DNA of 53,403 nucleotides from positions 1 through 53,403 of the forward strand of contig JAFTSM010000022.1 in assembly GCA_017467305.1 (NCBI GenBank). The letters run 5' to 3'. The notes beneath the pieces were generated by a model. It saw nothing but the letters and a program-made list of their open reading frames with translations. It was not told where the DNA came from and did no database searches. The translations under genes were made by a program, and so were the position numbers. Source of the DNA: Candidatus Gastranaerophilales bacterium (GTDB taxonomy: Bacteria; Cyanobacteriota; Vampirovibrionia; Gastranaerophilales; Gastranaerophilaceae). Of the stretch, positions 4,122-8,640 are shown one piece after another; the first letter of the stretch is position 1; each line of letters opens with the position of its first letter.

Positions 4122-4805
4122 ATGAAATACAAATCAAGATTAAACAAAGCACACAATCTACCAGGCACTCTTATCTGTGTTGAAGGTATTGACGGTAGCG
4201 GAAAATCAACACAACTTGTAATTTTACGTGATTGGCTAAAATCACTAAAACAAGATGTTATTTTTACAGAATGGAACTCTTCAGACTTAATTTCGCAAAC
4301 AACAAAGTTAGCTAAAAAAAAGAATTTATTAAGTCCAAGAACTTTTTCATTGCTTCACGCTGTAGATTTTGCTGATAGATTAGAACAGGTTATTATCCCA
4401 GCACTCAAAGCAGGGTTTATTGTTTTAGCTGATAGATACGTTTACACAGCATTTGCAAGGGATGTAGCTAGAGGCGTTGATAGAGATTGGGTAAGAAAAG
4501 TATATGGTTTTGCTGTAAAACCAGATTTAACAATGTATTTCAGAGTATCAGAAGATGTTTCACTAGAGAGAATTTGTTCAAATCGTTCACCTAAATTTTA
4601 TGAAGCCGGTATGGATTTGAAAATTAGTACCGACCCATATGAAAGCTACAAAATATTCCAAAAACGAGTTAACGATGAATACAAAGATATGATTAAAGAA
4701 TATGGACTTGTAGAAATTGACGCAAACGATACAATCCATAAGAAACAAGTATTTTTTAGAGATGAAGTTAAAAAAGTCTTGGCTAAAAAAGGAATTATAT
4801 TATAA
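4122..4805 (+). CDS. Thymidylate kinase-like P-loop kinase 1
   Basis: This 227-residue cytosolic nucleoside-monophosphate kinase belongs to the thymidylate kinase family, which phosphorylates dTMP to dTDP. The P-loop EGIDGSGKST lies near residues 21-30. A DRY motif with following helix (DRYVYTAFARD, about 106-116) and a FADRLEQ segment (about 84-90) complete the nucleotide-binding core. The LID-like region around residues 150-165 differs from the usual Tmk pattern. The product is clearly paralogous to that of the next gene, which starts directly after its stop codon. A canonical Tmk has DRYxxSxxAYQ; here Thr-Ala-x-Ala-Arg-Asp replaces it, as in the divergent second Tmk class, so the true substrate is uncertain. 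Confidence 0.8.
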   Translation: MKYKSRLNKAHNLPGTLICVEGIDGSGKSTQLVILRDWLKSLKQDVIFTEWNSSDLISQTTKLAKKKNLLSPRTFSLLHAVDFADRLEQVIIPALKAGFIVLADRYVYTAFARDVARGVDRDWVRKVYGFAVKPDLTMYFRVSEDVSLERICSNRSPKFYEAGMDLKISTDPYESYKIFQKRVNDEYKDMIKEYGLVEIDANDTIHKKQVFFRDEVKKVLAKKGIIL

Positions 4806-5471
4806 ATGGCAAACAAAAAAACAAAACACGGCTATGACGGTCTATTAATAGTTATTGAAGGTACTGATGGAAGCGGTAAATCCACTCAAATTGAAAAACT
4901 AAAGCGTTGGATTGAAGACCAATCTTATGGAGTTATGGTCAGCGAATGGAAAACATCAAAGTTCATTGCTGATGCAATTAACGATGCAAAAGACAGAAAC
5001 CTTTTAAACGCAACAACTTTTAGCTTGTTATATGCTGCTGATTTTGCTGATAGATTAGAACAAGTTATTATTCCTGCATTAAAAGCTGGTTTTGTAGTCA
5101 TCTTAGATAGGTACGTTTACACAGCATACGCACGTGACGTTGTTAGAGGTCACAATATCGAGTGGCTAAAAAACTTATATGACTACGCACCAGAGCCAGA
5201 TATGGTATTCTATTTAGATGTTCCAGTAGAAATTTTGTTAAAAAGAATTATCGGAACAACCGGTTTGGATTATTGGGAGTCTGGTAGAGACATTGGTTTA
5301 AGTACAGACTTCTATAAAAGCTTCCAAATATATCAAGGAAAGTGTTTAGAAGCTTATCAAAAAATGATTGATGAATATGGATTTATCTCTATTGACGGAA
5401 CAAAATCACCTAAAGAAATCCATAAAAAAATAACAGCTCACGTTGGAGATTTACTTGAGATTTTGAACTAA
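4806..5471 (+). CDS. Thymidylate kinase-like P-loop kinase 2
   Basis: A second thymidylate-kinase-family protein (221 residues) follows the first with no intergenic base. The P-loop EGTDGSGKST (about residues 18-27) and DRYVYTAYARD are both kept, and the FADRLEQVIIPALKAGF stretch is shared almost unchanged with kinase 1. The LID region (TTGLDYWESGRD) and much of the N-terminal third differ. Co-transcription and a duplicated yet diverged pair suggest either an obligate heterodimer or two different nucleotide substrates. Neither can be identified as the essential dTMP kinase from sequence alone. No clear terminator follows; a new promoter begins 20 bases after the stop. Confidence 0.8.
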   Translation: MANKKTKHGYDGLLIVIEGTDGSGKSTQIEKLKRWIEDQSYGVMVSEWKTSKFIADAINDAKDRNLLNATTFSLLYAADFADRLEQVIIPALKAGFVVILDRYVYTAYARDVVRGHNIEWLKNLYDYAPEPDMVFYLDVPVEILLKRIIGTTGLDYWESGRDIGLSTDFYKSFQIYQGKCLEAYQKMIDEYGFISIDGTKSPKEIHKKITAHVGDLLEILN

Positions 5472-5524: not shown

Positions 5525-5872
5525 ATGAAAAAGCTAAATAATTCTAATTTTGAATTACTTGAAGACATAATTAAAAATTTAGATTTTAATTATGACCCAA
5601 GTCATAATCAAACATTAGAAAAACTTGAATGTTACTGGAATGAAACAATCGGTAACAAAATTTCAAAATTTTCTAAAGTTTTAGAAATTTCTGACGATAA
5701 TGTTCTGACAGTAATATGTGCTGACTCATTTATTGCAAATGAATTATACTTTGAAAAAACAAGATTAATAGGCAACATGAATGAAAAAGCAAAAGAACTG
5801 GGTATTAAAATAGTAGATATTAGATTTGATTATAAAAAATGGAAAGAAAGAAACAATGAGCAAAAAATTTAA
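5525..5872 (+). CDS. DUF721/DciA-like protein
   Basis: The 115-residue protein fits the DUF721/DciA family by overall pattern: an N-terminal helix, then W-N-E-T-I-G-N-K-I near residues 38-46, a strand-rich part with DNVLTVICADSFIANEL, and a C-terminal segment ending in a strand with IVDIRFDYK. DciA proteins load or activate the replicative helicase DnaB in bacteria without DnaC or DnaI. The assignment rests on this conserved W..xxG...L.V....S.....L layout. The promoter box ends six bases before the ATG, so the message is probably leaderless. The 3' end overlaps the next gene by 17 bases, which suggests translational coupling. Confidence 0.7.
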   Translation: MKKLNNSNFELLEDIIKNLDFNYDPSHNQTLEKLECYWNETIGNKISKFSKVLEISDDNVLTVICADSFIANELYFEKTRLIGNMNEKAKELGIKIVDIRFDYKKWKERNNEQKI

Positions 5873-8372
5873 AGGTTTTTCTCTTGCCGAATTATTAATT
5901 GCATTACTTGTAATTAGTATCGTTTTATCAGCGGCAATTCCAACACTAACAAGAAAATCAGCACAAGATAGAGAACAAATTTGGAAATGGAGCCAAGACA
6001 ATAATAGTACGTACTTTGGTTTAGGCGCAAACCAATCAGTTCTTATTGGTACGGCAAATACACCAATGGATACTTCTGACGATGCAGAAAATCCTGTTTC
6101 ATTAGCAGTTATGATGACCGACGACAAAGGTAGTGACTCATATGAAATTGACTATAATGGACCCCGTTTCACAACAGACGGTGATAAATTAGTAATTTTG
6201 AAAAAATCATTACTAGGAAATACAACCAATATGGCCAACTCCCATATATCTTTTTATAACATCAACAATGGTGCATCAACAGTTACTGACAACATAACAT
6301 ATGGTGGTAGAATTGCTGTGGATAAACACAACCTTGCTTTTGGTAGAGCAACTCTACTTCATATGGCTAATCCAGAAGCAATTACAGAAACAAATAATTT
6401 AAATTCATCAAACCCTCCATTTGTAGGTGAAAATACTGCTGTTGGTCACTTTGCGCTTATGAACACAACATTTGGTGAAAAAAATGTTGCCGTGGGTGAA
6501 AAAACTCTTACTTTAAACAAACAAGGCTCAGAAAATACGGCAATCGGTTATATTGCTGGTAACCAAATTGGATACGTTGAAAGAGAAAACCAAAGAACAG
6601 TTGGTACATCCCAAGCACAACAGCTTGTGTTAGAAAAAATAAATGATTATTCAGAAACTTCATCTTATAATTCTATTTTAGGCTCATATGCATTAAGCCA
6701 AAATAGATATGGATTTGGAAACACGTCATTAGGTGCACAATCTTTATTCGTAAATCAATATGGTGATGAGAATACAGCATTGGGGTACTATTCTATAGGT
6801 GGATTAAGAAATGGCTATGGTAATACAGCCATTGGTGCCAATGCTTGTAACTATTTAACAGAAGGTAATTACAACATTTGTATCGGTAATTCTGTTGTTC
6901 CAGATATGCTTGGTTCTAACTTAAGGGATTATAATTTTGGCTTAGCGATAGGTGCGACAAGAACACCTCAAGGTGGAGTTACTAGCCTATTACAAAATAG
7001 TGCACCACTTATTACTGGCCACGTACAAAGAGTAGGACACGATACAAGTATTGCCGGTGGTGTAGTAACTACAACATACAAAAATAATCCAACTATTACA
7101 GATAATCAAAATGGATATTTTGATAAGGAATTAATTGTAAACGCAAAAGATGTTGAATTTAAACCATTTCACGGTGGTAATTTCCCAACCTTCGTATTCA
7201 CATCAGTTCCTGGTGATATTAATAACCAAAATAACTATGGTTATGGAGAGAACAACAATCTTGGTGGCGGTGTAAGTGGTTCTGCCTTCTTCAATTTAAG
7301 ATATTTCAATAATGTTCAAGATAGTGGTTCTGTCACAATGCAATTTAAAGCACTTCAAAATAAACCAATAATTGCTGCTTTTGACCCTAATAAAATAAAA
7401 AGTGAATCTGGTCACAAAATAGCAAAATTACACAGTATCTCATTTAACGAATTGATTAAATTTGATATGCCAGATAACTATACAAGTTACCCTACTTGGA
7501 TACCAGCGTGGAGAGCTACCGATAGTGATTTAACAGACAAATTACGTTCAACAAATCAAAATGTTGTAGGCATCGTTGCTGACAATTATACAAACAGCCC
7601 TGGTATTGGTGAAGCAGATATTTTTATTAATAATAGATTAAATGTCACAAGACGTGCTAATCACTTAATAAATATTGATGACAAAGGTACTCAAATTATT
7701 GATATGGGTCTAAAAATGCCATTTGAGGTCAATATAAATGGCAACGAAGAGAAACCTAGTTTAAAAGTAACTAGTGATAATATATCTATGAATTCTGATA
7801 CAAATATAGAATTTGACATAGCAGGTTCACAGCTTATACATATAAACAATAATGGTGTAACTGTTGGAAATGGCAAAGACTTATTTATTGAAGGACTTAG
7901 TATCAATAGTAGTAGCGGTGTAAAAGCAGCCCTTAATTATTTAAACCAAGAAATAAATAGAATCAGCCAAATAGCAGGAACATATTCCGATGCTCGTTTA
8001 AAAAATATATCTGGTGACAGCAAAGCTGGTTTAGCAGAAATCAACAAAATTGAAGTTAAAAACTACACATACAAAAATGATGAAAAGAAAACTCCACACG
8101 TTGGTGTTATCGCACAACAATTGCAAAAGATATTCCCTAACTCTGTAATTAAAGGTGAAGACGGTTACCTAAGAATTAAAACAGAAGAAATCTTCTATGC
8201 AATGGTTAATTCAATAAAAGAATTATGTGCAAAACTTCAAGATTTAACCGCAAAAGTTGTTGGTTTAGATAAACGTATAACAGAGCTTGAAGCACAAAAC
8301 AAAATGCTTCTTGAACAAAATAAAGCTTTTGAAAAACGTTTAGAAAAACTAGAAAAACAAGCAGCTAAATAA
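5856..8372 (+). CDS. Prepilin-like protein with S74 chaperone tail
   Basis: The 838-residue chimera begins with a type IV prepilin or type II pseudopilin leader: a short basic stretch, then G-F-S-L-A-E-L-L and a hydrophobic helix (about 5-28), so prepilin peptidase should cut between Gly and Phe. The middle (about 185-360) has repeated segments of the form GxxNTAxGxxxL/A (ENTAVGHFAL, ENTAIGYIAG, ENTALGYYS, GNTAIGANA), like the trimeric YadA-type head. The C-terminus has SDARLK at residues 711-716, the Ser/Lys dyad of the peptidase S74 (endosialidase chaperone) family, then the typical VGVIAQQL and a coiled coil (about 790-836). S74 domains trimerise beta-helical fibres and then cut themselves off. 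A trimeric fibre anchored by a pilin-like helix is inferred. The ATG at 5856 is chosen because it places the leader at the N-terminus. Confidence 0.85.
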   Translation: MSKKFKGFSLAELLIALLVISIVLSAAIPTLTRKSAQDREQIWKWSQDNNSTYFGLGANQSVLIGTANTPMDTSDDAENPVSLAVMMTDDKGSDSYEIDYNGPRFTTDGDKLVILKKSLLGNTTNMANSHISFYNINNGASTVTDNITYGGRIAVDKHNLAFGRATLLHMANPEAITETNNLNSSNPPFVGENTAVGHFALMNTTFGEKNVAVGEKTLTLNKQGSENTAIGYIAGNQIGYVERENQRTVGTSQAQQLVLEKINDYSETSSYNSILGSYALSQNRYGFGNTSLGAQSLFVNQYGDENTALGYYSIGGLRNGYGNTAIGANACNYLTEGNYNICIGNSVVPDMLGSNLRDYNFGLAIGATRTPQGGVTSLLQNSAPLITGHVQRVGHDTSIAGGVVTTTYKNNPTITDNQNGYFDKELIVNAKDVEFKPFHGGNFPTFVFTSVPGDINNQNNYGYGENNNLGGGVSGSAFFNLRYFNNVQDSGSVTMQFKALQNKPIIAAFDPNKIKSESGHKIAKLHSISFNELIKFDMPDNYTSYPTWIPAWRATDSDLTDKLRSTNQNVVGIVADNYTNSPGIGEADIFINNRLNVTRRANHLINIDDKGTQIIDMGLKMPFEVNINGNEEKPSLKVTSDNISMNSDTNIEFDIAGSQLIHINNNGVTVGNGKDLFIEGLSINSSSGVKAALNYLNQEINRISQIAGTYSDARLKNISGDSKAGLAEINKIEVKNYTYKNDEKKTPHVGVIAQQLQKIFPNSVIKGEDGYLRIKTEEIFYAMVNSIKELCAKLQDLTAKVVGLDKRITELEAQNKMLLEQNKAFEKRLEKLEKQAAK

Positions 8373-8384
8373 AATCAATCAAAT

Positions 8385-8414
8385 AAAAAACCTCCTTTAA
8401 TAAGGAGGTTTTTT
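8385..8414 (+). terminator. Strong Rho-independent terminator
   Basis: The stem AAAAAACCTCCTT (8385-8397) pairs with AAGGAGGTTTTTT (8402-8414) around a 4-base TAAT loop, 12 bases after the prepilin/S74 stop codon. Poly-T follows on the plus strand. Confidence 0.9.
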
Positions 8415-8466
8415 ATTGCCATAAATAACTATTGACTACTTTCACAAAAAAAACAAACCTCTCCTC

Positions 8467-8640
8467 TGTCATCTTGAAAGATTAGAGAAACAAGCTTTAA
8501 AGCATAGTTTTTCAATCTATTCAAGATCTTACCAGATTTTATATTTTATCTTAAAATTAGTTAGATACTGAGCTCGCTTCGCTCCTCAGCATGACATAAA
8601 AAACAGTAATACTAAAACCGGTTCAGAATGACATAATTAC
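8467..8640. repeat. Dispersed palindromic repeat spacer
   Basis: No gene is supported. A GTCATCTTGAA segment near 8467 and a palindromic CTGAGCTCGCTTCGCTCCTCAG unit (in two arms, about 8568-8589) followed by CATGACA resemble common bacterial dispersed repeats. A second TTCAGAATGACA occurs near 8620. The AGCG/CGCT core is shared in style with the repeats at 466-492 and 3655-3681. Confidence 0.5.

Follow-up and report, generated by a model that had tools for sequence, protein, structure and literature searches.

A prepilin leader and an S74 domain in one gene

The window analysed here, a 53,403 bp stretch of contig JAFTSM010000022.1 from a Candidatus Gastranaerophilales bacterium (assembly GCA_017467305.1), contains a gene whose product begins with a type IV prepilin leader and ends with an S74 domain followed by a coiled coil. 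We put at roughly 60% the probability that this protein is a modular minor pilin and that, as a homotrimer, it makes up a phage-tail-like fibre on the tip of the cell's type IV pilus. Its architecture and the conservation of that architecture, the genes of the machine, an invariant catalytic pair, a trimer motif and a variable middle part are directly supported by the data; the features are collected in Table 1.

An earlier sequence-only reading had placed these elements at 5856..8372, and its coordinates and motifs are correct. Both end domains lie in a single intact open reading frame (ORF) and exceed the curated cut-offs in a Pfam search (N_methyl, PF07963, residues 3-28; Peptidase_S74, PF13884, residues 711-764). 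TIGR02532, also above cut-off, agrees on the leader, which has the features of class III: it is short and basic, ends in glycine, and is followed by an aromatic residue at +1, glutamate at +5 and a hydrophobic helix. The middle had been described as carrying YadA-head-like NTAxG repeats. The repeats stand, with seven NTAxG-type motifs between leader and S74 domain and an exact 17-residue spacing inside each of two blocks; no YadA family is among the 14 Pfam families that match at E up to 1. A phmmer search with residues 186-409, part of the repeat region, gave no match among solved structures at E up to 10, and Foldseek with the whole structure model gave none at E 0.001 or better. Near its N-terminus the model has only a helix at residues 10-35, and residues 27-113 mostly have a predicted local distance difference test score (pLDDT) below 50.

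The S74 part has clear relatives among solved structures. Its best sequence match is the ICA domain of MYRF (7dc3, 2.7e-13), other sequence relatives being the intramolecular chaperones 3gw6 and 3gud, and its predicted fold matches the same MYRF domain (Foldseek E 8.9e-5), so that the S74 fold expected from the letters alone is found in the prediction. A protein search in which 7991 candidates were scored gave 653 homologues, of which the 120 listed are the basis of all homologue counts here. The coiled-coil trimer motif RhxxhE lies within the final 58 residues of all 120, where shuffling those residues would lead one to expect 2.4, and is there in at least two copies in 111; as homologues share descent, this count reflects conservation and does not represent 120 independent trials. 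The chaperone function of an S74 domain would not by itself require the Ser/Lys dyad. The invariance of this pair, together with the conserved trimer motif, suggests that the chains trimerise and that the last 128 residues are released, as had been proposed. In the bacterial fibre Bd3182, S74 self-cleavage takes place at Ser782 and is blocked by S782A (PMC10769870).

A strict prepilin leader is present in 119 of the 120 listed homologues (in the exception, P0013, the N-terminus is unrelated) and the SDxxxK dyad in 120, and therefore the fusion is not a chance one. Residues G7, F8, E12, W43, W45, G57, Q60, S711, D712 and K716 are invariant in an alignment of 74 sequences drawn from these homologues. 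Scanning the genomes of named species yielded 45 loci, some of them pieces of one genome, which by title belong to Gastranaerophilales (40), Avigastranaerophilus (1), 'bacterium' (2), 'Cyanobacteria bacterium' (1) and Udaeobacter (1), the last being a weak match to the repeats only.

Pilus machinery and a possible route to the tip

The genome that contains the window (1.85 Mb, 89% complete) encodes 14 prepilin leaders, including that of the fibre protein. The sequence-only reading made a prepilin peptidase indispensable, and the genome holds one Peptidase_A24 candidate (39.3 bits against a cut-off of 26.5), which no NCBIfam model names. It also encodes a PilB-like ATPase, which has a cyclic di-GMP-binding domain and reaches 526 bits with TIGR02538, below the cut-off of 676, and two ATPases of the PilT family that do exceed theirs. 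The secretin scores 142.8 bits as GspD and 131.9 bits as PilQ, both below the NCBIfam cut-offs and thus non-deciding between the two; it lies near PilB on contig C56, as does one PilC-like gene, and another such gene is on C29. In a termite-gut relative, pilA, pilB, pilC, pilT and pilD have been reported (PMC5877343).

The fibre had been assigned to a pseudopilus-type machine. This, the type II secretion reading, was set aside because the two PilT-family (retraction) ATPases above cut-off argue for a retractable type IV pilus. The 13 further prepilin genes are dispersed, unclustered, over 12 contigs (C12, C19, C25, C34, C37, C42, C43, C46, C52, C73, C75 and C8).

If the protein is a pilus-tip fibre, its N-terminal helices would first anchor three chains in the inner membrane, leaving the remainder outside, and the C-terminal coils and S74 domains would gather the chains and template a trimeric beta fibre, as the S74 family and the trimer motif suggest. 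Ser711 and Lys716 would then cleave before Ser711, as shown for other S74 proteins, so that the last 128 residues depart and the variable tip (approximately residues 347-710) is exposed. Trimming of MSKKFKG by the prepilin peptidase would let the helices be built into the pilus, of which they would be the initial subunits, after which PilB would extend and PilT retract the pilus through the secretin, and the tip could bind and pull.

Variability before the predicted cut

Along the alignment, the mean frequency of the commonest residue is 0.88 for residues 7-36, 0.84 in the S74 domain and 0.80 in the coil, and 0.25-0.30 for residues 347-710. The stretch before the predicted cut is hence the most variable, as expected of a putative receptor-binding tip. 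We compared 32 syntenic sequences with tmk2 and dciA upstream (496 pairs, gaps scored as differences), among which mean identity is 0.83 for the helix and 0.74 for the S74 domain, 0.20 for residues 347-560 and 0.13 for residues 561-710; the neighbours in the same pairs average 0.90 (tmk) and 0.53 (dciA). Three of the 21 pairs with a kinase identity of at least 0.97 have a tip (residues 561-710) identity of 0.35 or less (L032/L056, 0.35; L054/L057, 0.22; L038/L050, 0.21), and the remaining 18, many from the same few genomes, range from 0.52 to 0.87. With gaps scored in this way, length change inflates the effect, and dciA is also fast-evolving.

Occurrence of the fusion in the order

Of 192 sampled genomes from the order, 99 have S74 and 189 a PilT-family match; all 99 S74-bearing genomes have the latter, the three PilT-less genomes all lying outside them. 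A sampled genome contains up to 12 S74 matches. Ten genomes of the window's own genus were included, nine with one match and one with four.

A leader was counted where a hydrophobic stretch followed the motif. The check covered loci L021-L159, a non-random sample made up of all the scan loci, automatic loci and 60 stretches picked from the listed matches to span genera. These hold 142 S74 ORFs, many of them repeats of one gene, all with S[DS]xxxK. Thirty-nine are cut at the 5' end, and 98 of the 103 uncut ORFs have a prepilin leader. The five others are L051, which sits close to the end of a contig; L072 and L078; L064, from Udaeobacter; and L146, from a genome of another family of the phylum. 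When ORFs are counted as distinct by their last 300 residues, 107 remain: 85 with a leader, 17 that are both cut and leaderless, and the 5 exceptions just named. Within the Gastranaerophilales, S74 as called in these genomes thus occurs almost only behind predicted prepilin leaders.

At L072 and L078 the leader lies upstream of the S74 part in another frame of the same locus, which may reflect an error of assembly, a pseudogene or phase variation. In-frame stops (one or two TAA or TAG) appeared in the S74 matches of several genomes, and their interpretation as silent cassettes or pseudogenes was rejected: in the two flagged loci that were inspected, L077 and L085, local tblastn finds no stop inside the S74 match, and none of the Pfam S74 matches in the genome listings shows an internal stop. 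It seems that the longer alignment runs beyond the true gene end. The C-terminal coil of L086 contains, in the alignment, a stretch inserted in the coding frame that resembles a translated intergenic repeat element.

Three-gene operons in sister families

Six of the seven genomes sampled from two sister families, f6 and f7, have S74. Five of them (L188-L192) carry three different leader-S74 genes in tandem on one strand, and the sixth (66% complete) shows two. All six junctions in the three f6 genomes overlap, by 1-14 bases; the two f7 genomes have intergenic gaps of 4 and 30-33 bases. A fourth prepilin gene, this one without S74, directly follows the trio in four of the five genomes (its start codon is ambiguous in f7), and the operons could be minor-pilin tip clusters. 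The layout is reminiscent of the minor-pilin operons of other type IV filaments. The fourth gene resembles the other prepilins of the window's genome chiefly in the leader, and matching it to them named no adaptor there. Among the 20 genomes of genus g7, the number of S74 matches is exactly three in 16, four in three and zero in one; two genomes (G129 and G142) have three leader-S74 genes within approximately 7.5 kb, two adjacent on one strand and the third opposite.

The trimer motif is present in 38 of 38 loci of the single-gene form and in 43 of the family's 63 other loci, and in 0 of 9, 2 of 6 and 2 of 11 cases in the trios; as coil lengths differ, this contrast is no more than suggestive. 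Because different leader-S74 genes stand in tandem and the motif is rare among them, the trios are suggestive of a heterotrimer, the window's genus having a homotrimer. In a tree of 52 S74 domains (85 columns), 26 of the 48 inner branches are open; each of the three subunit types is a supported group in f7 and g7, and one type is in f6, so that by this tree the f6, f7 and g7 trios may be one old set or have separate origins.

We tentatively extend the proposal to a reading that is less likely than not. The Gastranaerophilales would have turned the phage tail-fibre principle into a retractable pilus-tip system with a self-trimming, trimeric receptor-binding fibre. In some lineages it would be an obligate heterotrimer from three tandem prepilin-S74 genes, usually with the fourth pilin as adaptor, and in the window's genus a homotrimer from one gene. 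The tip would be exposed only after the chaperone leaves, and the expansion in copy number (as many as 12 S74 genes in a sampled genome) would be a repertoire of host or prey specificities.

Gene neighbourhood

The ATG of the fibre gene overlaps the final 17 bases of dciA, a gene that also precedes it at 36 of the 43 loci L021-L063. Among those without it, L034, L046, L051, L058 and L059 start in or just before the gene, and at L049 and L063 the upstream DNA is present and dciA was not found there. Because homologue architecture and dciA synteny recur across loci, the prepilin-S74 gene is, as judged by comparison of these genomes, a mostly fixed chromosomal gene of this uncultured gut lineage and not an assembly accident. 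A promoter scan did no better than shuffles (22 found, 24.6 expected).

Two tandem thymidylate-kinase-like genes, approximately 46-48% identical to each other's relatives, lie at 4122-5471 of the window, and the pair is conserved upstream of dciA in most related loci. The gap after the fibre gene contains a short, dispersed-repeat-like palindrome (8571-8596), of which the window has no second copy when up to 3 mismatches are allowed. At 1393-2589 is a 398-residue protein of no clear family, which the glycine-zipper family PF13488 matches weakly and below its cut-off (E 0.0031).

Table 1. Features of the prepilin-S74 fibre gene and its immediate surroundings (positions in the window).
Feature	Residues	Position	Strand	Basis or remark
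dciA		5525..5872	+	PF05258 2.9e-10; conserved upstream neighbour
Prepilin-S74 fibre gene	838 amino acids	5856..8372	+	Intact ORF; N_methyl and Peptidase_S74 above cut-offs
Leader peptide MSKKFKG		5856..5876	+	Predicted cleavage after Gly7; PF07963/TIGR02532
Hydrophobic prepilin helix	8-36	5877..5963	+	Model helix 10-35; conservation
Post-helix motif	37-66	5964..6053	+	W43, W45, G57, Q60 invariant (74 sequences); low model confidence
NTAxG repeats, first block	189-231	6420..6548	+	Motifs at 193, 210, 227
NTAxG repeats, second block	285-346	6708..6893	+	Predicted beta-helix or roll
Variable part, predicted mature tip	347-710	6894..7985	+	Commonest-residue frequency 0.25-0.30
S74 intramolecular chaperone/protease domain	711-780	7986..8195	+	PF13884; invariant S711/D712/K716; predicted fold
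Ser711 codon; Lys716 codon	711; 716	7986-7988; 8001-8003	+	Predicted cut before Ser711
C-terminal coiled coil	781-838	8196..8369	+	Long model helix; two RhxxhE motifs (RITELE, RLEKLE)
Terminator-like hairpin		8382..8417	+	16 pairs, -20 kcal/mol, z -7.7; pattern scan puts it on the - strand

Alternative readings

The leader might be an inner-membrane anchor only, the S74-made trimer forming at the inner membrane's outer face, to work there or to cross the envelope without joining a pilus. The model lacks a canonical pilin head, showing little of confidence after the N-terminal helix, and the fibre gene adjoins kinases and dciA rather than pilus genes, all of which would suit such an anchor. We nevertheless think it unlikely, as G7, F8 and E12, which cleavage by the peptidase and packing of pilins would be expected to need, are invariant in the 74 sequences, and four of the five operons in the sister families continue after their leader-S74 genes with a prepilin gene that lacks S74. 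Display on a pilus with the S74 domain retained, uncut, as a trimer clamp would be consistent with the high conservation of domain and coil as a whole (0.84 and 0.80), cleavage here being a prediction; the Ser/Lys pair kept in every listed homologue, and S[DS]xxxK in every S74 ORF, make this improbable.

That the pilin carries S74 as a peptidase acting on other proteins follows a suggestion made from the family name by Raynaud et al. 2021 (PMC8179133). We find it very improbable here: the solved relatives matched are intramolecular chaperones or a self-cleaving domain, and the adjacent beta region and coil fit a trimeric fibre. Finally, the repeats and the C-terminus match PHROG families of tail fibres and tail spikes, as they would if the gene were that of a prophage tail fibre, or a chimeric assembly, with an accidental prepilin-like start. 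This is barely credible, because the synteny is conserved, the same architecture standing at the tmk-tmk-dciA locus in many species; moreover, a viral scan yielded only two weak loci, covering residues 711-814 and 192-354.

Comparison with known systems

If the pilus-tip fibre proposed here is correct, it would, in evolutionary terms, bridge phage tail fibres and the adhesins of type IV pili, and would make testable a general problem, namely how a three-fold trimer is loaded onto a helical pilus. Uncultured gut relatives of cyanobacteria would gain an organelle for attachment, and the part that sets its specificity could be read out of metagenomes. The closest solved relative of the S74 part belongs to MYRF, a eukaryotic membrane-bound transcription factor whose ICA domain is auto-processing. 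From the YadA-like heads of trimeric autotransporters (AtaA, 3wp8) the protein differs in matching no YadA Pfam family at E up to 1 and in ending in S74 and coil, with no membrane anchor.

The sequence-only reading saw in the gene a joining of two normally separate systems. The junction itself is real; as an architecture it is not new, being already in print. Raynaud et al. 2021 have the combination IPR012902-IPR030392 among their 15 commonest architectures of modular pilins; there, prepilin motif and S74 likewise share one protein, modular pilins are argued to be tip-exposed and peptidase activity is suggested (PMC8179133). The portions of that paper cited here read S74 as a peptidase, make no mention of a trimeric fibre, of self-trimming, of a variable tip or of an operon of several genes, and name no Gastranaerophilales among the listed representatives of the 15 architectures (PMC8179133). 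Our searches of open-licence papers yielded no description of prepilin-S74 in Gastranaerophilales or as a trimeric fibre. The bare combination is thus known, and its extension to a trimeric pilus tip is bold and testable.

The large modular minor pilins TcpB and CofB are homotrimeric initiators of type IVb pili, whose beta-rich C-terminal domains trimerise at the pilus tip (PMC9565799, PMC8179133); the cited passages on them mention no S74 domain. They are not among the sequence or fold matches of the fibre protein, an absence from those lists that excludes nothing. Shufflon PilV is likewise a minor pilin with a conserved N-terminus and a variable adhesive C-terminal part that sets partner specificity, but DNA inversion there varies the 3' end (PMC9045228), whereas the variable part of the fibre gene lies between two conserved ends. 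The S74 subgroup of the mosaic adhesive trimer (MAT) fibres of Bdellovibrio, compared here by description only, is also bacterial and chromosomal and consists of trimeric beta fibres that end in S74 with SDxxxK, Bd3182 being the one with demonstrated self-cleavage (PMC10769870). MAT fibres start with a signal peptide and a conserved beta domain of approximately 130 amino acids, their anchor being unknown (PMC10769870), in contrast to the prepilin leader found here, which, if it does carry a trimer to the pilus tip, would be one answer to the surface-anchor question left open for those comparable fibres.
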